NCBI RefSeq assembly: GCF_002688585.1
Contig: NZ_CP024034.1
Location: 549,501-613,500, forward strand
Source: Candidatus Fonsibacter ubiquis
GTDB lineage: Bacteria > Pseudomonadota > Alphaproteobacteria > Pelagibacterales > Pelagibacteraceae
Reading direction: 5' to 3'
DNA length: 64,000 nt
The position numbers and the translations under genes were made by a program. This document shows positions 53,431 to 64,000 of the stretch, piece by piece. The notes under the pieces are model-generated. The model had not been told where the DNA came from. It searched no databases and saw only the letters and a list, made by a program, of their open reading frames with translations. Position 1 is the stretch's first letter, and each line of letters starts with the position of its first letter.

Positions 53431-53548
53431 ATTTAGTAAAAAGAGATTTTAGTACATAATCTAAAATATAAAAACAAACATTATTTTGATTATATTAAAT
53501 CAATAAACTCTGTATTTTGAGCAAAAATTAAATTTATAATTTTAACTA

Positions 53549-54811
53549 CTATTCAAACCTCAGCATTTTTACATCCCTGACTTCTATTTTATCATGAAAG
53601 TCTGTGTAATTAACTTTTTCTTGTTCATTGAGTGCCGGCCTTCTAAAGAATATTTCAATCTCTCTCTTGTCTTTTAAGTAATCATGTAATGACTGAACAT
53701 TTTTAAACTCTTTTCCATCCACATACATAATAACATCAAACTTTCGAAGTTTTCCTGATGCAGGGCCACTTCTTAAATTTTGTACAACTAAATTTCCTTT
53801 TGGATTTGCCATCCTCTGATTGATTGCAAGTCTTGTTGAGGATGCTTTATCAGAGATTATTACATTAGAAAAAATCAGACCAACTCTGTCTGTGATACTG
53901 CCTTTTGATTTTAAGGTTAATTTAAGTTCTTGCTCTTTATTATCTCTGATAATTTTTAAATTAACATTAGTTTTTCCCCTTGTTTCATGGGAAAGCTGTG
54001 TTGGATTTTCAATCTTTATTCCATCAATCTGTATTATCTCATCACCCACTTTTAATTGATTATCGTTTGTTAAAACTTCAGACACTTTCAAGAATTTTCC
54101 TTGTTCTTTATTGTTTGCAAAGATCACATTAAAATTTAATGGGGATGGATCTTTTTTATTCTTAAATAAATCAATAACTTTGCAGACTGTATATGATGGT
54201 AATGCAAAATTAAGTCCTTCATTCTCTTGAATCCCAAATGAATTAATTCCAACAACAAGTCCTGATTTTACATCTATAAGTGCACCTCCAGAATTTCCTC
54301 TATTTATTGCAGCATCAGTTTGAATGGACTCAAAAAAATCACTTTCAAACCTTACGGCTGAAATAATTCCTCTTGTAATAGTAAAATCTTTTCCCGCTGG
54401 ATGGCCGAAGGCAACAACTTCCTGTCCTTGATTATAATTATTTTTACAATGTAGCTTTGCCTCAACTGCATTATTTGGAATAGATTTTGGATCAATCTTT
54501 AAAAATGCAAGATCCAATTCAGGATCGATATAAGCTTGTTTGGATTGGACGGGATTTGAATATTTAAAGTTAACTCGATTTAATGCAGGCGAATAAGATG
54601 CAACATGAGCATTTGTAATTATAATCCCATTTGCCTTATCAATTAAAAACCCCGAGCCAGCACTTGGGGTATAAGAGTCCTCAAGAAATGGTGTGTCAGT
54701 TGAATTATAAATTTTAACAGTATACTTATTCGCCTGATCTAGAATTCTTTCTAGTTCATTAGCATAAACACTTGATGTTAAAGCTAATATAATAAATATT
54801 ATTTTTTTCAT
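53549..54811 (-). CDS. DegP-like secreted serine protease with PDZ domains
   Basis: Trypsin-fold (S1C) periplasmic protease. The 420 residues have a signal peptide (about 1-18, ending SSVYANE), then the catalytic triad His69 (IITNAHVAS), Asp100 (PELDLAFLKI) and Ser174 (INRGNSGGALID). A PDZ domain at about 240-300 (LKVGDEIIQIDGIKI) and a second at about 345-390 (SGKLRKFDVIMYVDGKEF) follow. The protein ends in a short extra segment. By family it would handle misfolded envelope proteins. Its start overlaps the end of an unknown gene by 4 bases, so both are probably one operon. Confidence 0.9.
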   Translation of the reverse strand: MKKIIFIILALTSSVYANELERILDQANKYTVKIYNSTDTPFLEDSYTPSAGSGFLIDKANGIIITNAHVASYSPALNRVNFKYSNPVQSKQAYIDPELDLAFLKIDPKSIPNNAVEAKLHCKNNYNQGQEVVAFGHPAGKDFTITRGIISAVRFESDFFESIQTDAAINRGNSGGALIDVKSGLVVGINSFGIQENEGLNFALPSYTVCKVIDLFKNKKDPSPLNFNVIFANNKEQGKFLKVSEVLTNDNQLKVGDEIIQIDGIKIENPTQLSHETRGKTNVNLKIIRDNKEQELKLTLKSKGSITDRVGLIFSNVIISDKASSTRLAINQRMANPKGNLVVQNLRSGPASGKLRKFDVIMYVDGKEFKNVQSLHDYLKDKREIEIFFRRPALNEQEKVNYTDFHDKIEVRDVKMLRFE

Positions 54812-55254
54812 TTAATTACTTTTAACTCATTTATAAGATTAAAAAGTTTATACTGATCAATCTTATCTCCTGATTTCACTATACGTGGATGATTTATATA
54901 GTAGAAGATCTTTCTATATTTTTCCTTCGAATATCTAAATTGATAATAAAATCCAAGTTTTTGAAACATACTTGTATCAAATAATTGCCCCATACATCGA
55001 TGCCAGGCAAAGAAGTAATGAACTACTGAATAATGTAGTAACTCTGGTTCAAGCTTGGGTAAAGCTTCTTTAAACTCTATCCAAGTTTTAAGTTCACCTA
55101 GATATTTCATATATAAATCACTTAATTCTGAATTTATTTTATATTTCTTCTGATATAGAAAATGAATGTAAGCATCACGAGCATTATATCGATGGCGTCT
55201 ATTATCTCTTATTTTCTTTCGAGCTTTCTCAAAATGAATGACTATAGCTTTCAT
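54808..55254 (-). CDS. Hypothetical protein co-transcribed with DegP-like protease
   Basis: The 148 residues are rich in Lys, Arg, Tyr and Phe. I recognise no family. There is no signal peptide or membrane segment, so it is probably cytoplasmic and helical. Notable stretches are RDNRRHRYNARDAYIHFLYQ, HYSVVHYFFAWHRCMGQLFD and FYYQFRYSKEKYRKIFYYIN. It is upstream of the protease gene with a 4-base ATGA-type overlap, which argues for a functional or at least regulatory link. Confidence 0.65.
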   Translation of the reverse strand: MKAIVIHFEKARKKIRDNRRHRYNARDAYIHFLYQKKYKINSELSDLYMKYLGELKTWIEFKEALPKLEPELLHYSVVHYFFAWHRCMGQLFDTSMFQKLGFYYQFRYSKEKYRKIFYYINHPRIVKSGDKIDQYKLFNLINELKVIK

Positions 55255-55392
55255 AAAACTATGATTAAAATGATTCTAAATTGCTAGAAATTATAAAGAA
55301 ATTAAAGCTTAATACCTATTGTGGCTGTGGAGTAATTTAATCTATTAATTGAGATTGTAGTTATTAGATTATTATTTTTTAATCATTTTTTT

Positions 55393-55767
55393 TTAAAAAT
55401 CTTGAATAAATAAAATTAAAGAAAAAAAAGACCAAATAAGTGAAAAAAAACATGATGACCAATAGTCTTCTTTTGTAGCTATATAATTTTTAGAAAATAT
55501 TTTCATAGTAATTATTCCAAGAAGACCCATAAAAAATGGTAAAGGCAAAACAAAACCTAAAGCAAAACCAATTGAATAAGGAATATCTTGTTCTAGTTTT
55601 AATTGAATAATGAATACAATGATTATTAAAATACCTATTAATACCAAAGTATTTCTTGTAGAGGAGATATCTCTTAAAAATTTTTGCTTTTTTGAAAAAT
55701 AAATACCAAAGTAACTAGTTAAAATTAATAGTAAAATTAAGATTATTGCTACAAAACTAATACTCAT
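55393..55767 (-). CDS. Small four-helix membrane protein, unknown
   Basis: The 124 residues consist almost wholly of four hydrophobic segments (about 3-24, 40-58, 66-90 and 104-122) with short basic loops (FSKKQKFLRD, KIFSKNYIATKEDYW). No domain is recognised. It stands alone, with a 138-base spacer downstream and a 134-base divergent spacer before the lipoprotein gene. Codon and base use match the surrounding genes. Confidence 0.6.
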   Translation of the reverse strand: MSISFVAIILILLLILTSYFGIYFSKKQKFLRDISSTRNTLVLIGILIIIVFIIQLKLEQDIPYSIGFALGFVLPLPFFMGLLGIITMKIFSKNYIATKEDYWSSCFFSLIWSFFSLILFIQDF

Positions 55768-55863
55768 TTTTAAAATATATCTTATGATGTCTTTATTAAC
55801 GATAAGTAAAAAATGATAATTTAAGCTATTTTTTATGTTTTTTTATTAGATAAATTTCTAGTA

Positions 55864-55893
55864 TTGGAATTTAATGTTAAATCTAAATATAAA
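55864..55893 (+). promoter_or_regulatory. Predicted promoter of lipoprotein gene
   Basis: TTGGAA (55864-55869) and TATAAA (55888-55893) are separated by 18 bases. The start site would be at about 55900, 1-2 bases before the ATG at 55902, giving a near-leaderless mRNA. No Shine-Dalgarno is seen. Consensus match only. Confidence 0.4.
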
Positions 55894-55901
55894 CTATGTA
55901 G

Positions 55902-56636
55902 ATGAATTATTTTTTTTATTTAATTTTATTTTTTTTGGTGAGTTGCACAACCATAATTGATGCAACAAATTATGATGATTTTAGAAGACAATCTTTACTA
56001 AAAGGTTTTTATTATAGTGCAGAAGCTAAATCAGATAATATTAGACATTTATACGACAGAGGAGCTTATGGGGCAGGAAATACACAGCTTAGAGCGAATC
56101 AAATTGCTATAGAATTTTGTATTAAAGCTGGTTTTAGAGATTGTATAATTACAAAAGAAAATGACAAAGTTATAAGATTAACTCAATGGCAGCAAGCTGA
56201 GGCAAAAGCTTTAGAGTTAAAAAATGCTGAAGCAAAAGCTTTAGAGTTAAAAAATACAAAATTACCAACTGATAATTCTTCTCAATATAAAAAAGGGTTG
56301 AAAAATAACTGGAAAAGAATTTCAAGAACCATAAATGACGATACACATTTTTATGTGGACACTTCATCTATTAAAACAGAAAAGTATTATAAATATTATT
56401 GGGTGCTAGCAGATTATTTAAAAAAAGATGGTGATAAAGTTAGGTCAGTTATTACTTACAATAAAGTTGATTGTGGAGACTTTAAATTTCAATTGTTAAA
56501 AATGATAATGTATGACGGACAGAAAGGTGAGGGAAAAAAATTAGACGAATTTGATATAAAAAATCCTGAATGGACAACAATGGATGAAAAAAAAACAGCT
56601 GGTGATATACTTTTAAGTTATGTTTGTAAAAGTTAG
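55902..56636 (+). CDS. Lipoprotein with adhesin E-like C-terminal domain
   Basis: The 244 residues begin with a lipoprotein signal peptide whose lipobox is FLVSC (Cys15). The C-terminal half, from about 132 (NNWKRISRTINDDTHFYVD) through WVLADYLKKDGDKVRS and the paired-Cys segment DCGDFKF ... SYVCKS, resembles the surface-adhesin protein E domain (W, YVD, then VW-D pattern). That is a resemblance, not a proven match. The middle contains a duplicated 10-residue unit, AEAKALELKN, encoded by a 30-bp tandem repeat. It is probably anchored to the outer membrane. It is convergent with the coiled-coil gene, 15 bases apart. Confidence 0.7.
   Translation: MNYFFYLILFFLVSCTTIIDATNYDDFRRQSLLKGFYYSAEAKSDNIRHLYDRGAYGAGNTQLRANQIAIEFCIKAGFRDCIITKENDKVIRLTQWQQAEAKALELKNAEAKALELKNTKLPTDNSSQYKKGLKNNWKRISRTINDDTHFYVDTSSIKTEKYYKYYWVLADYLKKDGDKVRSVITYNKVDCGDFKFQLLKMIMYDGQKGEGKKLDEFDIKNPEWTTMDEKKTAGDILLSYVCKS
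56196..56255 (+). repeat. Two tandem 30-bp units in lipoprotein gene
   Basis: Units 56196-56225 and 56226-56255 differ at one base (G/A at the sixth position) and keep the reading frame, encoding AEAKALELKN twice. The near identity indicates a recent slippage or duplication event, so copy number may vary between strains. Confidence 0.9.
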
Positions 56637-56651
56637 TTTAATTTAAGAATA

Positions 56652-57371
56652 TTATTTAAGTTCTTTTACTATCTCTACAAAAAATCTTATTATTGCAAGT
56701 ACGACAGATACTCTTGCGGCATAACCCCAGAACCCATTTTCTTTTTTTTTATTTTTTTCAATAACATAAAATCCTGCACTTCGCCAAATTCCAATAGATA
56801 CAAAAATTGTAAAAATAATATAGGCAAGGGCATAAAGACCTAAAATAATAGCCGCAGAATCTGATTTAAGATTTTCAAATATAAACAATGGCAATGCTAA
56901 AATAATTGCCAATAAAACGCCGATGCCCCAATAACTATAAGCTAAAGACTCCTCACCTCGAATAAAAGGTTTAATTTTTGTTTCAATAAAACTATTTTCA
57001 TTCTGAGATGAACTTCTTAAATTACTTTCCTTCTTAGAGTAAGATTTCTCTAAATTTTTAACTCTTCTATTTTCTCTTAACTCATCTCGTTTAGCACGCA
57101 ACTCATAAATTCTATTTTCTTTATCGATTCTTTCTTGCTCAATTTTATTTTCTCTCTCAATTCGTTCAGCCTCTATCCTTTCTTGCTCCTCATAAAATTC
57201 ATCTTCTAAATCTCTTGTTCTGATTTCAATATAAATTGCTCGAGCTTCATTTTTATCACCTCTTGCCTCTTTAAAAGCTTTCAACCAAGCCGTATCTTCA
57301 TAATTATTTTTATCTAATTCCGATTTAACTATTTTTGATATTTTTTTTTCTAACTCTTTTTTTTGTGACAT
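56652..57371 (-). CDS. Coiled-coil protein with shared C-terminal membrane domain
   Basis: The 239 residues start with a helical segment (TAWLKAFKEARGDKNEARAI, a pattern also seen in zinc-ribbon-type proteins elsewhere), then a highly charged coiled coil at about 50-110 (EEQERIEAERIERENKIEQE). The C-terminal domain at about 136-239 has three hydrophobic segments. It contains GEESLAYSYW and SIGIWRSAGFY, which match the C-terminus of the MORN protein at 58129-59664. There is no signal peptide, so the coiled coil is probably cytoplasmic. It diverges from the PrsW-like gene. Function is unknown. Confidence 0.7.
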   Translation of the reverse strand: MSQKKELEKKISKIVKSELDKNNYEDTAWLKAFKEARGDKNEARAIYIEIRTRDLEDEFYEEQERIEAERIERENKIEQERIDKENRIYELRAKRDELRENRRVKNLEKSYSKKESNLRSSSQNENSFIETKIKPFIRGEESLAYSYWGIGVLLAIILALPLFIFENLKSDSAAIILGLYALAYIIFTIFVSIGIWRSAGFYVIEKNKKKENGFWGYAARVSVVLAIIRFFVEIVKELK

Positions 57372-57456
57372 AAAGTAAAAATATTATGATAAAATTTAAA
57401 TATATTTACGAGTATATATGCATTTAATACATTGAAAATAAATAATTTAAAAAAAA

Positions 57457-58116
57457 ATGATACTTTATCTTACAATTTTGCCCGCCATACTCATTTTTTT
57501 ATATTTTTATTTCGCCACTGAGTACAAAAATATTCATTCGCTTATTTTTCAAGTATTTGTAATTGGTTTATTCATAGCTTTTCCAGCTGGTGAGTTTAAC
57601 TCTTATATTTTAGAAAATTTTTCAAATAACAATCCAGTCAATAATGCATTATTAACTGGTTTTTTTGCTGGCGGATTAGTTGAAGAATTATTAAAATTTT
57701 CTGTTTTATATTTTTTTGTTCTTGAGCATAATAAAATAGTTAAGCCAACTTATATTTTAATTTTTGGAATGATTGTATCCTTAGGTTTCGCTATACACGA
57801 AAATTATACATATGTGTTTACAAATAAAGATAAGGGATACCAACTTTATGTATCCCTAGTCAGAATCTACTCTGCGGTACCAATGCATATTTTCAATGGT
57901 GTTATTATGGGGTGTTTCTTTGCATTTTATAAATATAGTAAAAATATAAAGTTTTTAGGCTACTCAATCTTAGTCCCTATAATTTTGCATGGTAGTTATA
58001 ATTTTTTATTAGGCGTAGACTTTCCGCACGTTGAAAAAATTATTGTAATAATTATGATTTTTTTATCCTATCAACTATATAAAATAGTTAGCAAGATCGA
58101 AACTTCCTACAGGTAA
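57457..58116 (+). CDS. PrsW-family intramembrane metalloprotease
   Basis: The 219-residue protein has about seven hydrophobic segments. The family motifs are in order: EExxK as GGLVEELLKF (Glu76, Glu77, Lys80), FxxxE as FAIHENYTY (Phe111, Glu115), a His motif as MHIFNG (His144), and a final His in LHGSYNF (His178). PrsW-type enzymes cut membrane proteins such as anti-sigma factors. No sigma or anti-sigma gene is here. It is flanked by two genes that share a membrane domain, divergent on one side (85 bases) and convergent on the other (12 bases). Confidence 0.82.
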   Translation: MILYLTILPAILIFLYFYFATEYKNIHSLIFQVFVIGLFIAFPAGEFNSYILENFSNNNPVNNALLTGFFAGGLVEELLKFSVLYFFVLEHNKIVKPTYILIFGMIVSLGFAIHENYTYVFTNKDKGYQLYVSLVRIYSAVPMHIFNGVIMGCFFAFYKYSKNIKFLGYSILVPIILHGSYNFLLGVDFPHVEKIIVIIMIFLSYQLYKIVSKIETSYR

Positions 58117-58128
58117 AATAAAAAAAAA

Positions 58129-59664
58129 TTAAATACCTTCTAACATTCCTTGGATAAATCCAATTCCAAAAAGAATAGATGTAGCAACTATTACTACATA
58201 AATTACGTTTGCCCAGCCAAAAGTTTCTCTAATTCTAATTTTTTGTAATTTATAATTAGTAGCGCTTCTCCAAGTTCCTATACTTGAAAAAACATAGCAA
58301 CCTACAACTATCCATGCAAAAATCCCTGGTATCAATGAATCAAGATTTTGTTTTGAACTATAATCATCTAAAATTGAAAATAAAAAAAAATTTATTAAAG
58401 TTAATAGTGAATACATTATCCAAAATGAAAAACCTAAAGATTCTTGACCATTAAAAAAGCTTATAATAAAATTTTTACCTTCTCTTACTCTAGGTTTAAA
58501 AGATCTTTCCGAGTTAAGATTTAAATCTTTTTTTGTTTGTGTATATACAAAGAAAATTACTCCTATTAGTAATATCAATACCCACCAATATTCTTTTATA
58601 CTACTACTTGTTTTTAATTTTGCGCTCTCTGTAGATTTTGTTTTTTTTGTGAAATTTGAATTTTCATTTTCTACTTTTCTATAATTCTTTGCATCAGCAT
58701 ACTCATTCTCATTCCATGTTCCTGTCAATCTTTCGCCGTCAGAAAAAAAATAAGTCCCTGTACCGTGTCGCTTTCCATTTTTTACCTCACCTATATACTT
58801 ATCTCCTGATGAAAAAGTTATAGTTCCTCTGCCGTTTGGACGATCATTCTTGTATTCTCCAGAATATTTATTTCCATTGGCATAAATATATGTTCCAAAT
58901 CCATGTCTATCTCCATTTAAATATTCTCCCTCATATCTATCGGCAGGATCAGACCACTTGTAAATTCCGTAGCAATTTGTCCAGGTCTTTTTATTATAAC
59001 TACCAACGCAATTTGGTAATTTTGACTGATTTACTGAAGATGCGGATGTTTTGCTTGTATTTGATATATTTGAAGTTTCGGTATTAAAGATTTTATCTCC
59101 GTAAATTTTTGCAGAGCGGCTTGAAAAATCTAAATTTTTGTAAAAAATAAATAGCTTTTCGGCATTCTTAATCTCAACTGTCGTGGCCTGTTTATAATTT
59201 ACAGGTCCTGGGGCGGGATAATTTCTAGGTTTTGTATATGATAGCCAAACACCATTAGTTTTTTCATAAATATATTGTTTGTCACCCTCAATCCTGTAAT
59301 GAAGTACAATTGAGTCTCTATCATGATATTCTATTAAGCCTTCTTGTAAGTAAAAAGTAATTTGATTATTAATATTATATGCGCAATCAAAAATACCGTT
59401 TTCTATTGCTATAAGTCTATTTGATTTATCATAATGAATTTTTTTTCCTTGCTTAAGACCATTTACATTAGCATTTAATTTCTTACAATTTTCAAAGTAT
59501 GAATTATTTATTCCAAAATAACCCTGCTCATTAGTGTATCCAGCATCACTTTTTTCACCAACACTTAGTCCTTTATTTGTTTTATTATCATAAATAAGTG
59601 CAAATGTTCTTTCTGGAAAAATAGTTAATGCTAAAAAAAATAAAAATAAAAATATTTTATTCAT
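58129..59664 (-). CDS. MORN-repeat protein with shared C-terminal membrane domain
   Basis: The 511 residues have a signal peptide (about 1-22), an unknown N-terminal domain with several Cys, three full MORN repeats at about 244-312 (YEGEYLNGDRHGFGTYIYA, YSGEYKNDRPNGRGTITF, YIGEVKNGKRHGTGTYFF) plus a partial fourth, a membrane segment at about 358-375, and a C-terminal membrane domain at about 400-511. That domain contains GQESLGFSFW and SIGTWRSATNY, matching the coiled-coil protein at 56652-57371. MORN repeats would therefore be periplasmic. The protein's role is unknown. It is convergent with the PrsW-like gene. Confidence 0.75.
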   Translation of the reverse strand: MNKIFLFLFFLALTIFPERTFALIYDNKTNKGLSVGEKSDAGYTNEQGYFGINNSYFENCKKLNANVNGLKQGKKIHYDKSNRLIAIENGIFDCAYNINNQITFYLQEGLIEYHDRDSIVLHYRIEGDKQYIYEKTNGVWLSYTKPRNYPAPGPVNYKQATTVEIKNAEKLFIFYKNLDFSSRSAKIYGDKIFNTETSNISNTSKTSASSVNQSKLPNCVGSYNKKTWTNCYGIYKWSDPADRYEGEYLNGDRHGFGTYIYANGNKYSGEYKNDRPNGRGTITFSSGDKYIGEVKNGKRHGTGTYFFSDGERLTGTWNENEYADAKNYRKVENENSNFTKKTKSTESAKLKTSSSIKEYWWVLILLIGVIFFVYTQTKKDLNLNSERSFKPRVREGKNFIISFFNGQESLGFSFWIMYSLLTLINFFLFSILDDYSSKQNLDSLIPGIFAWIVVGCYVFSSIGTWRSATNYKLQKIRIRETFGWANVIYVVIVATSILFGIGFIQGMLEGI

Positions 59665-59884
59665 TATTATTGATCAATATTATACTTTTTTTTAATAACT
59701 TCTAAGATTAAAAATTTTTTTATTACTTCAAAAATATTATTAATTTCATAACATCTTCAAAGTTGATGTTTAGGATGATTATGTCAATGTTTTTAAAGCT
59801 TTATTTATACTAGTTAGACTAGAAAAAAAACTCCTTAATTTCAAACAAATGGAATAAGTTAAAATCCTCGTATAAGTTAATTAA
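59665..59884. other. Divergent spacer between MORN gene and secreted-protein gene
   Basis: This 220-base, very AT-rich spacer must hold the promoters of both flanking divergent genes. I see only a short dyad CTAGT-TAG-ACTAG (59810-59822) and a TATAAG at 59871-59876 that could be the -10 of the rightward gene. No open reading frame or RNA gene is supported. Confidence 0.4.
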
Positions 59885-60496
59885 ATGAAAAAAATTTTAA
59901 TTATAATATTTACATTATTTTTTTGGAACTCAGTAATACTTGCTAAAGAAGAGATTAGGTCTAGATTCGGTTTTTATATTACTGTCCCATCAAATTTTAT
60001 CGCTATTCAAAATCAGAATTTAGATGATTTACTCAGAAAATATAAAGGTTCTAAAATCGATAAAGATGCTTTTAATGATTTAATGGCCGGATCTTCTAAA
60101 CAAAATATGAATATAGAGTATTTTTTTTCACCAGAGATGGAAGATCCCGGCAGTCATACTATTAATATAGTAAATGACACATCGGGTGATTTTAAAAGAG
60201 ATATCCTTTCAATCCCTATGCGGGACCTTTGTCCTTTATACAAGAAAGAATATTCCAAAGTATTTAAAAAAAATCTCGAACAGTATACTTGTGAACTTAC
60301 AAATAAATTTAGTCCTAAATTTAAACAAGCGGTGTTTTTGATTCATGATAGTGTGAGTTCGAAAGAAGGATACCTAGTTCAATATCAACTTCAAACAAGT
60401 GCTGGTTTTACAACTTTCACAGCAACTTGCAAAAATTCTAGAACTTGCGAATTGATGAACAGCTACGTATCTCAAATGATTAGATCAATTAGATAG
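59885..60496 (+). CDS. Secreted protein of unknown function
   Basis: The 203 residues have a clear signal peptide (MKKILIIIFTLFFWNSVILAKE, cleavage after Ala20). The mature part contains four Cys (in DLCPLYKK, YTCELTNK, ATCKNSRTCELM) that may form two disulfides. A central VFLIHDSVSSKEGYLVQYQL strand pattern suggests a compact beta-rich fold. I recognise no family. It precedes the ion-channel gene on the same strand but is separated from it by 189 bases with its own promoter. Confidence 0.65.
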   Translation: MKKILIIIFTLFFWNSVILAKEEIRSRFGFYITVPSNFIAIQNQNLDDLLRKYKGSKIDKDAFNDLMAGSSKQNMNIEYFFSPEMEDPGSHTINIVNDTSGDFKRDILSIPMRDLCPLYKKEYSKVFKKNLEQYTCELTNKFSPKFKQAVFLIHDSVSSKEGYLVQYQLQTSAGFTTFTATCKNSRTCELMNSYVSQMIRSIR

Positions 60497-60620
60497 TATT
60501 GCTAATTTTAATAAATCCATAAGATTAATAAAATTATATTTATTTAAATTTAATAGCTTATATAATTTTCGTTAAAATTAATAAATATAACCTCATTATT
60601 TTATTATCTTTAATAATAAA

Positions 60621-60649
60621 TTGTAATTAATTTTTGATAGGCTTATAAT
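60621..60649 (+). promoter_or_regulatory. Predicted promoter of ligand-gated channel gene
   Basis: TTGTAA (60621-60626) and a perfect TATAAT (60644-60649) are separated by exactly 17 bases. The start site would be near 60656, giving a leader of about 30 bases before the GTG start codon at 60686. It is one of the best sigma70-type matches in the window. Confidence 0.6.
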
Positions 60650-60685
60650 GAATGAAAATTTATACAAAAATAATTATTAATTTTT

Positions 60686-61819
60686 GTGAAAAAATTTATT
60701 TTTCTTTTTTTATTTATATTTTATCAATCCACTGCATTTTCAATTAATCAATTTAAATATTCAAAAGATAGTCTTAGAGCTGAGTTTTGTAATACATTAT
60801 ATGATAATTTGAATTTTCCCAATTTACCTAATAAAACCCCTTTGAAAATTGACACAGAGCTTTTAGTAGAAGAAATTAATAATGTTGATGGGAAATCTTT
60901 TAGCTTTGACGCTGTATATACTCTTTGGATCTATTGGACTGATGATAGAGTAATTGAATTATTAAAAAAATTAGGAAAATATGAAAAAACAAATGAACCT
61001 ACATATTTATGTGATTATGAAGTAAGTTCAATTTGGGGAGCAAAAAGAAAGTTATTTGATCCAGTTGTAGAAATTTATAATCAAAAAAAAACTCCAAAAT
61101 ATTCAGAAAGATTTGATTGGATTGAAATTTTCAGCAATGGAACAATTCAAGCAAGAGTAAGAACAAGCTCCGAGTTTAGAACAAAAGAATTAGATTTTTC
61201 AAAATTCCCTTTTGATAAACAAACATTTTCATTTCACATATTTTCAGAATTTCCAATTAATTTTGTAGAGTTTATTCCAAATAAAAAAATGAATACACAT
61301 AAAAAGGAACTTTACAAAGCAGACGGCGAAGATGGGTTAAATATTCCTGGCTGGAAAGTCAAAGATGTTCATTTTAAAAATATAATAACAAAAGAAGATA
61401 AATATGAATATTCAGGATTTGTTGTTGAAATTACTGCTGAAAGAAATTTTGGATATTATATTTTTAAGATTATGATTCCTGTAATTTTTTTGATCGTAAT
61501 AACTTGGTCTGTTTTTTGGATTAAAGTTTCTGAACTACAAGCAAAAGTGAATGTGACAGTTGTAACTTTATTAGCTTTAATAGCTTATAATTTTATTTTT
61601 GAACAGGATATTCCAAAACTTAGTTACGTTACATATTTAGATGTTTTTATTTTAGTTTCATATTTTTTTGCAGGCACAGCAACTATTCTTTGTATATATT
61701 CCCATTGGAAATATTTAATTTCAAAAAAAGATCAGAATATTGTTGGTTACTACGCAAGAAGATTTGGACCAATAAGCTATGTTCTAATTAATTTATTAGC
61801 AATATTTTTATATATATAA
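60686..61819 (+). CDS. Prokaryotic pentameric ligand-gated ion channel
   Basis: The 377 residues have the layout of a Cys-loop-type channel without the cysteines. They are a signal peptide (1-19), an extracellular beta-sandwich (about 50-250) with WIYWTDDRV, LFDPVVEIYN and the diagnostic FPFDKQTFSFHI (174-185), then RNFGYYIFKIMIPVIFLIV (M1, 253-275), M2 at about 284-305 (NVTVVTLLALIAYNF), the PKLSYVTYLD M2-M3 loop, M3 to about 340, a short basic loop and M4 to the end. The start is GTG at 60686; an in-frame stop lies 15 bases upstream. The ligand and ion cannot be read from the sequence. Confidence 0.88.
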   Translation: MKKFIFLFLFIFYQSTAFSINQFKYSKDSLRAEFCNTLYDNLNFPNLPNKTPLKIDTELLVEEINNVDGKSFSFDAVYTLWIYWTDDRVIELLKKLGKYEKTNEPTYLCDYEVSSIWGAKRKLFDPVVEIYNQKKTPKYSERFDWIEIFSNGTIQARVRTSSEFRTKELDFSKFPFDKQTFSFHIFSEFPINFVEFIPNKKMNTHKKELYKADGEDGLNIPGWKVKDVHFKNIITKEDKYEYSGFVVEITAERNFGYYIFKIMIPVIFLIVITWSVFWIKVSELQAKVNVTVVTLLALIAYNFIFEQDIPKLSYVTYLDVFILVSYFFAGTATILCIYSHWKYLISKKDQNIVGYYARRFGPISYVLINLLAIFLYI

Positions 61820-61984
61820 AATTTTACAAATGAAAGAGCCGTATTTCATGGCTAAATTAGCTCGCTAAACTTTTGATGACAAATATATCAAAGTAAACTT
61901 GATGCTAAAAAAATGAAAATTTATCCTGTAAAATCTTATACAATTTTTTAAATAATCATTACTAATATTAACTTTTTAGCATTC

Positions 61985-62014
61985 TTGACAATCGGTAGTT
62001 GCATAAAGTATTAT
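61985..62014 (+). promoter_or_regulatory. Strong predicted promoter before structured leader
   Basis: A perfect -35 TTGACA (61985-61990) and a -10 TATTAT (62009-62014) are separated by 18 bases. The expected start site is about 62020-62022, which coincides with the first of four hairpins. It would drive a leader of about 165 bases and then the two-gene operon at 62185-63274. Confidence 0.6.
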
Positions 62015-62019
62015 TAATC

Positions 62020-62158
62020 ATTACAGAATTTATTTTGTAATAGTTTCATAGTTGCTTCTAACTATGCCCCGCATCAAAGTTGATCGTCGGGACCACAATC
62101 AGAAAGAATTTAGAAAGAAAAAATGTGCGGCTGACCCAGCAATTGTGCTGCGTGTCAG
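62020..62158 (+). ncRNA. Candidate structured RNA: four tandem hairpins
   Basis: Perfect or near-perfect stems follow one another. H1 is ATTACA/TGTAAT (62020-62041). H2 is CATAGTT/AACTATG with loop GCTTCT (62047-62066). H3 is CCCG-C-ATCA, loop AAGT, TGAT-CGT-CGGG (62068-62091). H4 is CTGAC-C-CAGC, loop AATTGT, GCTG-CGT-GTCAG (62131-62158). H3 and H4 share the same asymmetric internal loop, C opposite CGT. It begins at the predicted start site. It may be a cis-regulatory leader or an independent small RNA. Folding was done by eye, and the region also encodes a small ORF. Confidence 0.5.
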
Positions 62159-62171
62159 AAAATTAATTTAA
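62064..62171 (+). CDS. Possible 35-residue basic small protein
   Basis: ATG at 62064 to TAA at 62171 encodes a strongly basic peptide beginning MPRIKVDRRDHNQKEF and ending VLRVRKLI. It uses GC-rich codons unlike its neighbours. The ATG is buried in the second hairpin and no Shine-Dalgarno is visible. The same bases form two further hairpins, so the ORF may be incidental to a structured RNA. It ends 13 bases before the next gene. Evidence for translation is weak. Confidence 0.3.
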   Translation: MPRIKVDRRDHNQKEFRKKKCAADPAIVLRVRKLI

Positions 62172-62184
62172 TTTACAAAAGAAA

Positions 62185-62772
62185 ATGAAAAAGAACAAAA
62201 AAAACGATCAGATGGAGTCGAAGATATCCTTCAAAGAGGTTTTGGAGAAAAATTTTCCACCTCGAAAAACAGAAAAAACCAAATATTTAATATCAAAAAG
62301 TAAGATCAAGAGTGGTTTTAGCTCAGATAAATTTATTATTTTTGGTGAAGATAAACGTGAATTTGATCGTTACCGAAATTCAATGATTGATCAATTAGAT
62401 CCAAAAACAGTGGTTCAAGTAGATCTTGCATTTATGATCATAAAACATGGCTGGGATTTAAAGCGAATAAATTTAATACGAAATGGCTTAATGAATGCCG
62501 AAACACGTATTCTATTAGAAAAAGCCTTTAACATTGAAGATACTCAAATCTTAAATAAATATGAGATTGAAAAAGAGCTCAATGATCTTAATAAAAAATC
62601 AGAAGTGATGGGTATGGTCTATGCAAGAGATTGTATAGGTGTAAATGCATTTGAAAAACTTTCAAGATTAGAAACTTCAATTCATGCAAAATATATAAAA
62701 ATCTATGATTATTATAAATTAGATAGATTTGGAAAGGAGCTATATGAACAAAAACAAGTTTCTAACGGCTAG
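62185..62772 (+). CDS. Conserved-hypothetical protein (uncharacterised family)
   Basis: The 195 residues have a basic N-terminus (FPPRKTEKTKYLISKSKIKSG), then a helical region with FGEDKREFDRYRNSMIDQLD, VDLAFMIIKHGWDLKRINLI, AFEKLSRLETSIHAKYIKIY and a Tyr/Lys-rich end. The order GED...Y...L...P.........W.L.RI...E...L.RLE recalls a widespread family of bacterial hypothetical proteins that I know only by pattern. A DNA- or RNA-binding role is possible but unproven. It is the first gene of a two-gene operon, preceded by the structured leader. Confidence 0.7.
   Translation: MKKNKKNDQMESKISFKEVLEKNFPPRKTEKTKYLISKSKIKSGFSSDKFIIFGEDKREFDRYRNSMIDQLDPKTVVQVDLAFMIIKHGWDLKRINLIRNGLMNAETRILLEKAFNIEDTQILNKYEIEKELNDLNKKSEVMGMVYARDCIGVNAFEKLSRLETSIHAKYIKIYDYYKLDRFGKELYEQKQVSNG
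62734..62739 (+). promoter_or_regulatory. Strong Shine-Dalgarno setting the start of the second gene
   Basis: AAGGAG lies 4 bases before the ATG at 62744, inside the end of the preceding gene. It is among the best ribosome-binding sites in the window. It favours 62744 over the TTG at 62729, which would add five residues. Confidence 0.7.
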
Positions 62773-63274
62773 GGATAAAAAAATTAAATCTACTAAAGAA
62801 AAAGCAGATTCTCTTTATAATAATTTATCTCAAACCGATTTATCTTATAGGGATAGTAATGAACATTTTTATAAAAATATGTTTAAATTACTTATAAAAT
62901 ACACACCCTATCCAAAAGAACCCTATAGTGAAGAACTAGCAAAAGTTTTAATTGAATGTTTTGGAAGAAAAGAGTTTGGGGATAAATTTTATGAAGAAAC
63001 AATTAAACCAATTTATAATAAGGAGATAAAAGAGGAGTTAAATAAAACAGCTATTAATGCTGAGGAAAAAAAACCAGAACAACCTGCTCCTGTCATTAAA
63101 ACTAGTCCTCCAGTGACTAATAAAAATTGTATTCCTTATAATGATGGGCTGACTCCAGAGGAAATTAAAAAAAATTGGCACAAAATTAGACCCTGCGATC
63201 CTAATGAAATTATTATAAAAAAGGAGAGTAAGCCTAATAAATTTAATGATCCAAATTTTAAAGGTTATTATTAA
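62744..63274 (+). CDS. Hypothetical protein, second gene of operon
   Basis: The 176 residues from the ATG at 62744 have a Lys-rich N-terminus, a helical middle (FYKNMFKLLIKYTPYPKEPY, ELAKVLIECFGRKEFGDKF), a Pro-rich linker (EEKKPEQPAPVIKTSPPVTN) and a C-terminal part with CIPYNDGLTPEEIKKNW and IRPCDPNEI. No family is recognised and there is no signal peptide. It overlaps the preceding gene by 29 bases with a different frame, indicating translational coupling. Confidence 0.65.
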   Translation: MNKNKFLTARDKKIKSTKEKADSLYNNLSQTDLSYRDSNEHFYKNMFKLLIKYTPYPKEPYSEELAKVLIECFGRKEFGDKFYEETIKPIYNKEIKEELNKTAINAEEKKPEQPAPVIKTSPPVTNKNCIPYNDGLTPEEIKKNWHKIRPCDPNEIIIKKESKPNKFNDPNFKGYY

Positions 63275-63311
63275 AATTTAGATTTTTATTGAAGATGGTT
63301 TGTGGCAGCGA

Positions 63312-63333
63312 CACCCAGCTTTACAGCTGGATG
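63312..63333 (+). terminator. Hairpin after the two-gene operon
   Basis: CCAGC-TTTACA-GCTGG (63315-63330) extends by ACA/TGT past one mismatch, about 40 bases after the stop at 63274. A T-run follows only after about 20 further bases (63350-63357), so it is an imperfect intrinsic terminator. It lies between convergent genes and could serve both. Confidence 0.35.
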
Positions 63334-63364
63334 TTTAATATTTAACTATTTTTTTGTAAAATAC

Positions 63365-63775
63365 TTAGGCTGGAAGAATTACAGTATCGATAATATGAAT
63401 AACGCCATTCGTACATTCGATATCTGTTTTTGTAACTTTAGATGTTCCGTTTAATTTAACGCCATCATCTGTACTAATTTTTACATCAGCACCATTTACA
63501 GTTTTTGCAGATTTACCATTTAAACCCATTACATCTGCTGCCATCACTTTGCCAGCAACAACGTGATATGTAAGAATAGATTTAAGTTTTGGAACATCAG
63601 CAAGTAAAGATTCTAATGTGCCAGCAGGTAATTTTGCAAATGCATCATCTGTAGGTGCAAAAACTGTAAATGGACCTGTGCCTTTTAATGTATCCACTAA
63701 ACCTGCCGCAGTTACTGCAGCTGCTAGTGTTTTAAAAGATCCAGCTTCTACAGCTGTATCAATAATGTTGTGCAT
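63365..63775 (-). CDS. Fasciclin (FAS1) domain protein
   Basis: Single FAS1 domain of 136 residues covering nearly the whole protein. The H1 box is [20 protein letters not shown], followed by [14 protein letters not shown] (the YH motif) and the H2-like [14 protein letters not shown] end. Such domains mediate adhesion or binding in secreted proteins, yet no signal peptide or membrane anchor is visible from any start, beginning [12 protein letters not shown]. It has a good Shine-Dalgarno (AAGGAAAT before ATG). Its composition is richer in Ala, Gly and Val than nearby genes, which may mark recent acquisition. Confidence 0.9.
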
Positions 63776-63806
63776 ATTTCCTTTTTTGTTTGATTGATCG
63801 AGGCCG

Positions 63807-63831
63807 ATGCGTATGTCACATAGACATGCAT
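63807..63831 (-). repeat. Hairpin in the leader of the fasciclin gene
   Basis: ATGTC-ACATA-GACAT with a further ATGC/GCAT stem beyond a 2-base bulge gives a 9-bp hairpin 30-55 bases upstream of the fasciclin ATG. A flanking CCGA...TCGG pair could extend it. The segment is more G+C-rich than the surrounding spacer. Confidence 0.4.
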
Positions 63832-63903
63832 AGCAAGGAGTATTCGGTCGCTATACGTATTTAAAAAAAATTTAGTAAAAATATTTTTTTTAAAAAAATT
63901 TTT

Positions 63904-63938
63904 CACCTTTTAACGCCAAATAAAGGTGTTTTATTTTT
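63904..63938. terminator. Intrinsic terminator-like hairpin
   Basis: CACCTTT / AAAGGTG forms a 7-bp stem with an 11-base loop, followed on the plus strand by TTTTATTTTT and on the minus strand, after five A, by seven T. It could act in either direction. A minus-strand open frame, with a hydrophobic end, stops at 63937-63939 just upstream of it, which would make it the terminator of a gene that lies beyond the window. Confidence 0.5.
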
Positions 63939-63964
63939 AAATATTTTTTGATACTTGATAAAGA

Positions 63965-64000
63965 ATGAGCACAAATCGAAAAATGAGCAATAGTGGTCCA
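63965..64000 (+). CDS. Possible start of a gene running out of the window
   Basis: ATG at 63965 opens a frame of 12 codons (MSTNRKMSNSGP) to the last base. An AAAG stands just before it and TACTTGATA-like sequence upstream. The opposite strand is also open here (63937-63999, reading GPLLLIFRFVLILYQVSKNI and a stop), which looks like the C-terminus of a membrane protein. Only one can be real and 36 bases cannot decide. Confidence 0.2.
   Translation, partial: MSTNRKMSNSGP

Follow-up and report, generated by a model that had tools for sequence, protein, structure and literature searches.

The window analysed here, 64,000 nucleotides of the single-contig, 1,160,202-base genome of Candidatus Fonsibacter ubiquis (G000), holds an open reading frame that runs without internal stops through 377 residues from a GTG start and encodes a short-type subunit of a pentameric ligand-gated ion channel (pLGIC). 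The gene lies in a variable segment that also carries, upstream and on the same strand, a PrsW-family intramembrane protease and a small secreted protein (Table 1).

Table 1. Features of the channel gene and its surroundings, in window positions
Feature	Position	Strand	Basis or remark
Short-type pLGIC subunit, 377 aa from a GTG codon	60686..61819	+	ORF, Pfam, phmmer, AlphaFold2 model, Foldseek, VIA-align
Putative signal peptide, about residues 1-20	60686..60745	+	by eye; helix 2-20 in the model
Cys35, first of a conserved non-canonical pair	60788..60790	+	alignment
Cys109, second of that pair	61010..61012	+	alignment
Glu129 (loop A), aligned without a gap to Glu77 of ELIC, which binds amines	61070..61072	+	alignment
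FPFDKQ, Pro loop, residues 174-179	61205..61222	+	sequence and alignment
Glu188-Phe189, loop B acid and aromatic	61247..61252	+	alignment
M1-M2 linker Trp278-Lys287 (WIKVSELQAK), Q-A-K at -2', -1', 0'	61517..61546	+	alignment
Predicted M2 helix, residues 284-306	61535..61603	+	AlphaFold2 model
Sigma-70-like box TTGTAA-17-TATAAT, 10/12 matches	60621..60649	+	shuffling comparison; not above chance
203 aa secreted protein	59885..60496	+	related proteins occur in L033, a pLGIC locus, and next to PrsW in L087
PrsW-family intramembrane protease; E76, E77, E115, H144, H178 invariant	57457..58116	+	PF13367, alignment; conserved neighbour of SAR11 pLGICs
Variable segment, window part (runs on to about 65198)	53487..64000	.	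missing from G037 of the same genus, where the two flanks adjoin

The identity of the protein as a genuine, intact bacterial pLGIC subunit is confirmed by similarity far beyond chance. It matches both Pfam domains of the family, Neur_chan_LBD (2.3e-8; 34.2 bits against a cut-off of 26) and Neur_chan_memb (8.7e-9; 36.4 against 28.1 bits), as well as 230 distinct sequences of solved structure at E<=1 in phmmer, led by sTeLIC (3.3e-25) and followed by an ELIC-GLIC chimera, ELIC, GLIC and DeCLIC. The NCBIfam LIC and LGIC_1 models match at about 1e-29, yet below their cut-offs (103.1 against 500 bits for LGIC_1 and 102.8 against 280.2 bits for TIGR00860), and the protein is therefore a divergent family member. 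An AlphaFold2 model built on a 31-row alignment (pLDDT 85.3, pTM 0.76) predicts a beta-sandwich followed by four long helices (residues 255-278, 284-306, 317-346 and 352-376). All 50 matches listed by Foldseek and all 50 listed by VIA-align are pLGICs, and GABA-A receptor subunits head the latter list (Z 27.0, 326 residues, 3.4 A). Pfam, the model and both structural searches thus agree on the ligand-binding beta-sandwich and four transmembrane helices of Pro-loop receptors, and in its predicted fold the channel is ordinary.

These results bear out the original prediction, made from the letters of the DNA, of a ligand-gated channel with the full pLGIC plan. The anchors on which it had relied are all found, FPFDKQ in the Pro loop, RNFGYYIFKIMIP at residues 253-265 and PKLSYVTYLD at 310-319. 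Within and around them, Phe174, Pro175 and Asp177 of the F/YPxD motif (beta6-beta7), the pre-M1 Arg253, Pro265 in M1 and Pro310 between M2 and M3 are unchanged in 31/31 sequences. Structure prediction and inspection of M2, both proposed as checks, returned a pLGIC fold and a helix that could line a pore, with 2'N, 6'V, 9'L, 13'A and 16'F in the lining positions (we take the usual prime convention to place 0' at Lys287). The same prediction had credited the gene with a strong promoter of its own, a claim that found no support: the region contains 14 promoter-like sites where shuffling predicts 18.5, and the box listed in Table 1 is for that reason no evidence of a promoter.

The cysteines tell a more nuanced story than had been anticipated. 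An animal-type Cys loop is indeed lacking, given that the only cysteines are at positions 35, 109 and 336 and no pair frames the Pro loop; what had been missed is a different, conserved pair. Among 55 sequences, 47 carry an N-terminal cysteine together with the equivalent of Cys109, seven carry neither, one has the N-terminal residue only and none has Cys109 only. Because the seven and the one share a single sub-clade, the co-occurrence counts as about one event. It nevertheless fits a predicted Cys35-Cys109 disulfide that would stand in for the Cys loop.

How might the pore select ions? The proposed kinship with GLIC and ELIC holds up in phmmer, but the filter is unlike that of either channel, with Gln at -2' and an M1-M2 linker that is two residues longer. 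Glu or Asp occupies -2' in 53 of the 55 SAR11 and alphaproteobacterial sequences, the exceptions being the window protein and L038:3408-4574, which has Arg. The ELIC-GLIC chimera aligns an acid with the Gln, and GLIC itself carries an acid at -2'. In place of the acidic -2' of cation-type bacterial pLGICs with a GLIC-like filter, M2 of the window channel thus starts with Q-A-K, which as a sequence motif corresponds to the anion-type A-[RK] lacking a preceding acid. An anion channel is accordingly a possible, if doubtful, reading, and one that is compatible with the nutrient sensor favoured below. Q-A-K replaces the E-A-K of relatives, the -2' acid is missing from one other sequence only, the linker has the length found in glycine receptors, and the transmembrane alignment with human GlyR alpha1 passes through M1-M2 without a gap, setting QAK over PAR, where sTeLIC, ELIC, DeCLIC chains and the ELIC-GLIC chimera need a two-residue gap. 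Moreover, Tasneem 2004 (PMC549065), which predicted from A-[RK] and E-[RK] motifs that bacteria would have channels of either selectivity, assigns A-[RK] to the anion type. At its outer end M2 is nevertheless acidic (E19', D21'), A-K also follows the acid in nearly all short forms, and the same linker length also occurs together with an acidic -2'. Outside these counts, a cyanobacterial (L050:1-1077) and a deltaproteobacterial/myxococcal pLGIC (L051:5749-7026) share the 8-residue linker, the latter with A-G-R at -2' to 0' as another anion-type candidate. The divergent L038:3408-4574 is the second of two tandem short pLGICs and reads R-T-R, not E-A-K, from -2' to 0'.

The relatives fall into two classes. 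Near-identity reduction of 62 channel proteins left 57, of which L050 and L051 are not part of the 55-row counts. In a tree with three outgroup rows, the 16 short forms separate from the 39 long ones (94/77 and 91/79), with 16/16 short sequences on one side of the 94/77 branch and the window protein as sister to that of AG-895-L23 (95/93); the deep joins of the tree are unsure because several branches are long. The amine pocket of ELIC comprises Glu77, Ile79, Glu131, Phe133, Tyr174 and Phe187, with Asn103 on the opposite face (Zimmermann & Dutzler 2011, PMC3119659). Transferred by HMMER alignment, its equivalents are Glu129, Tyr131, the 186-188 stretch, Phe189, Phe230, Tyr242 and Arg157. The pocket has the Glu77 equivalent but is ambiguous with respect to Glu131: HMMER sets Glu131 on residue 186 beside a gap, so that the loop B acid cannot be firmly placed on it. 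The 16 short forms keep an acid at 129 in 15 cases (14 Glu, one Asp), Tyr or Phe at 131 in 15, Trp145 in all, Arg157 in 15, an acid at 188 in all (15 Glu, one Asp), an aromatic residue at 189 in 15 and Tyr242 in 15. The same positions are not conserved in the 39 long forms, whose ligand-binding domain aligns less surely. We infer from this that the short form would be the ligand binder and the long form an accessory subunit, and the retention of the pocket in short but not long forms suggests heteropentamers of the two. Our literature search, which mostly did not extend to subscription papers and bioRxiv preprints, returned no match for an operon-encoded prokaryotic pLGIC heteropentamer.

In 8 of 14 short-type loci, the flanks fetched include a same-strand gene for a long pLGIC of about 505-525 aa. 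Long forms (L006-L030, L044:7189-8751 and others) carry a PDZ-like domain between an N-terminal helix and the ligand-binding domain. Pfam PDZ matches two of eight, one above the cut-off (L011) and one at 23.1 against 23.2, and 0 of 21 rows of a further set (14 long) at E<=0.01. Against those two, a profile built from 17 other long forms scores 97.6% and 95.6%, and against the PDZ region of an HtrA-like protease encoded in the window 64.4%; L011 alone matches that region at 42.4%. A second long group reaches 1.4% against L011 and 0.1% against HtrA, and the 50 structures listed as matches of a long-form model include no PDZ domain. We keep no more than the label 'PDZ-like', on account of the profile match to the two forms that Pfam picked out. 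A literature search for prokaryotic pLGICs with a PDZ or N-terminal domain gave general or unrelated matches only.

In the window genome, searches by protein, profile and the Pfam ligand-binding domain each returned this one channel, with neither a second pLGIC of any kind nor a long subunit. A homopentamer is expected there because the copy is single. Conceivably, the protein might instead be a subunit that requires a partner, and thus a non-functional remnant. Such a reading could draw on the same-strand long gene of the eight loci, which the window genome lacks; we regard it as quite improbable, since the reading frame is intact, pocket, pore and pre-M1 Arg are kept, and two further short-type loci (L034 and L039) likewise have no long subunit within about 6 kb on both sides.

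The channel had been called surprising in a minimal genome. This does not hold for the group: 45 of 397 Pelagibacteraceae genomes carry a pLGIC, so that these channels are not rare in SAR11, although within the window genome's genus it is found in 1 of 13 genomes, most of the other 12 being incomplete. Presence in SAR11 is by itself not new, because Jaiteh 2016 (PMC4795631) already mentions a pLGIC in Pelagibacter. The site is variable. Similarity to the same-genus genome G037 extends up to window position 53486 and resumes from 65199, and in G037 these flanks adjoin each other (L073, 14738 and 14744); an 11.7 kb channel-bearing segment is therefore absent at that site. It begins just past a tRNA-Thr gene and may reflect a gain in the window genome or a loss in G037. 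The HtrA-like trypsin/PDZ protease lies at its start (53549-54811), and a 35-codon open reading frame (62064-62171, MPRIKVDRRD...) that by eye is less A+T-rich than its surroundings precedes 62185. A viral origin was considered and rejected, as no relative was confirmed among 137 candidate IMG/VR stretches (two peptide patterns) and none was found by tblastn in 50,697 phage records.

The company that the channel keeps goes beyond what the original prediction saw. We compared 22 loci of pLGIC relatives, a set that leans towards short forms, from which the search patterns had been derived. The most constant neighbour is PrsW, present in the window and in 20 of the 22 loci, both misses being non-SAR11, and commonly directly upstream of the channel with a few bases of overlap. 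The window copy matches PF13367 at 88.3 bits (cut-off 23.5), falls short of the NCBIfam PrsW equivalog cut-off (92.2 against 225 bits) and has no solved relative at E<=0.1; its five invariant residues are unchanged in 21/21 sequences. Across the 397 genomes, 28 have both genes, 17 a pLGIC only, 21 PrsW only (49 with PrsW in total) and 331 neither (Fisher 2e-18, relatedness not corrected for), and 18 genomes have PrsW on the strand of the channel gene, at a distance of no more than about 3.4 kb. We rejected PrsW as a dedicated channel partner, given the 21 of 49 PrsW genomes in which no pLGIC was detected. Twelve of the 21 PrsW-only loci (L079-L090) were examined and hold other membrane or secreted cargo, namely DUF805 proteins, paired membrane proteins of about 290 aa, MORN-region relatives and a 202 aa secreted protein. 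PrsW therefore anchors a modular locus of which the channel is one cargo. Two minus-strand proteins of the window (56652-57371 and 58129-59664, the second with MORN repeats) fall into a single BLAST cluster that also contains a 107 aa protein encoded close to several pLGIC loci of SAR11.

A second neighbour points to a class of ligand. Of 14 short-type loci, 12 have a flavin amine oxidase gene immediately upstream of that for the short pLGIC; L031, one of the two without it, is truncated by a contig end. Three of these oxidases were scanned and match PF01593 down to 8e-49, the best solved relatives of their profile are LSD2 and maize polyamine oxidase, and a twin Arg near the N-terminus, as in a Tat-type signal, is present in 12/12. 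They form a Tat-type subfamily (L032, L033 and L035-L044; for example L036:4625-5968), and distant relatives (about 1e-116 to 1e-128) occur in 11 other genomes, none listed with a pLGIC. The short-pLGIC loci of SAR11 thus usually include PrsW together with a polyamine-oxidase-like enzyme that is exported, and in many cases a long pLGIC as well, an arrangement that is new here: in the literature searched, a pLGIC with an amine oxidase in an operon yielded nothing but a nicotine review, the matches listed for PrsW with an ion channel were unrelated by title, and SAR11 with a ligand-gated channel yielded unrelated matches only. The window genome has no such oxidase at E<=1e-60, and for its channel the amine argument therefore rests on kinship.

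We envision that the subunit is exported to the inner membrane and assembles as a pentamer, that a small ligand binds at the periplasmic subunit interfaces and that the pore of five M2 helices would open upon binding. Its ancestor was probably the short, ligand-binding subunit encoded in a SAR11 operon that usually holds PrsW and the oxidase as well and often a long subunit. A small amine or another nutrient resembling an amino acid is the probable ligand, because the pocket keeps the Glu77 equivalent, a second loop B acid, several aromatic residues and the facing Arg157, and the resulting ion flux might report external nutrients through altered ion content or membrane potential. A possible role of PrsW is the processing or turnover of the channel or of a partner. 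As a whole, a homomeric ligand-gated pLGIC serving as a probable amine or amino-acid-like nutrient sensor is the explanation that we moderately favour. A channel gated by pH, as GLIC and sTeLIC are, that has no small-molecule agonist and makes little use of its pocket appears unlikely: its nearest solved sequence, sTeLIC, is by its title gated by alkaline pH, whereas pocket residues are conserved among short forms and the oxidase beside relatives' genes points to a metabolite. More tentatively, and with real doubt about the ensemble, SAR11 might possess a one-operon receptor module in which a heteropentamer of ligand-binding short and PDZ-bearing long subunits is accompanied by an exported oxidase that removes or alters the ligand and by a PrsW that processes the receptor; the window channel would then be a stripped, homomeric version with a filter moved towards the anion type. 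Ligand, selectivity and heteromerisation of the SAR11 channels are all inferred.

What is novel is not the fold but the setting of PrsW, oxidase and two subunits, together with the unusual filter. As of 2016, no biological role was known for any unicellular pLGIC, according to Jaiteh 2016 (PMC4795631). SAR11 cells are very abundant and partly culturable, and they import polyamines and make use of them (Noell 2021, PMC8437039). The gene company of the channel suggests amines as the class of ligand, an enzyme for processing and perhaps a second subunit, and in such partly culturable bacteria a natural role and a bacterial heteropentamer are therefore directly testable. A corollary is that the natural Q-A-K among E-A-K relatives offers a ready experiment on charge selectivity.

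Among known systems, animal glycine and GABA-A receptors have an M1-M2 linker of equal length and provide the top VIA-align matches listed; at about 19% identity, the window channel differs from them in having neither a Cys loop nor a long M3-M4 loop. The proton-gated GLIC shares the M2-M3 and FPFD motifs (E about 1e-19), but its linker is shorter. ELIC, which is amine-gated and cation-selective, has the counterpart of Glu129 and similar aromatic positions in loops B and C, again with a shorter linker. Its authors report an adjoining putative amino acid decarboxylase gene, and the available part of their account (PMC3119659) mentions neither an oxidase nor PrsW. sTeLIC (6fl9) is the best full-length match, with 24-25% identity and a common plan of ligand-binding domain and four helices; its linker is two residues shorter. 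DeCLIC, finally, resembles the long paralogues of SAR11 in carrying additional domains at its N-terminus; in those paralogues the domain is PDZ-like, whereas the window channel has none.
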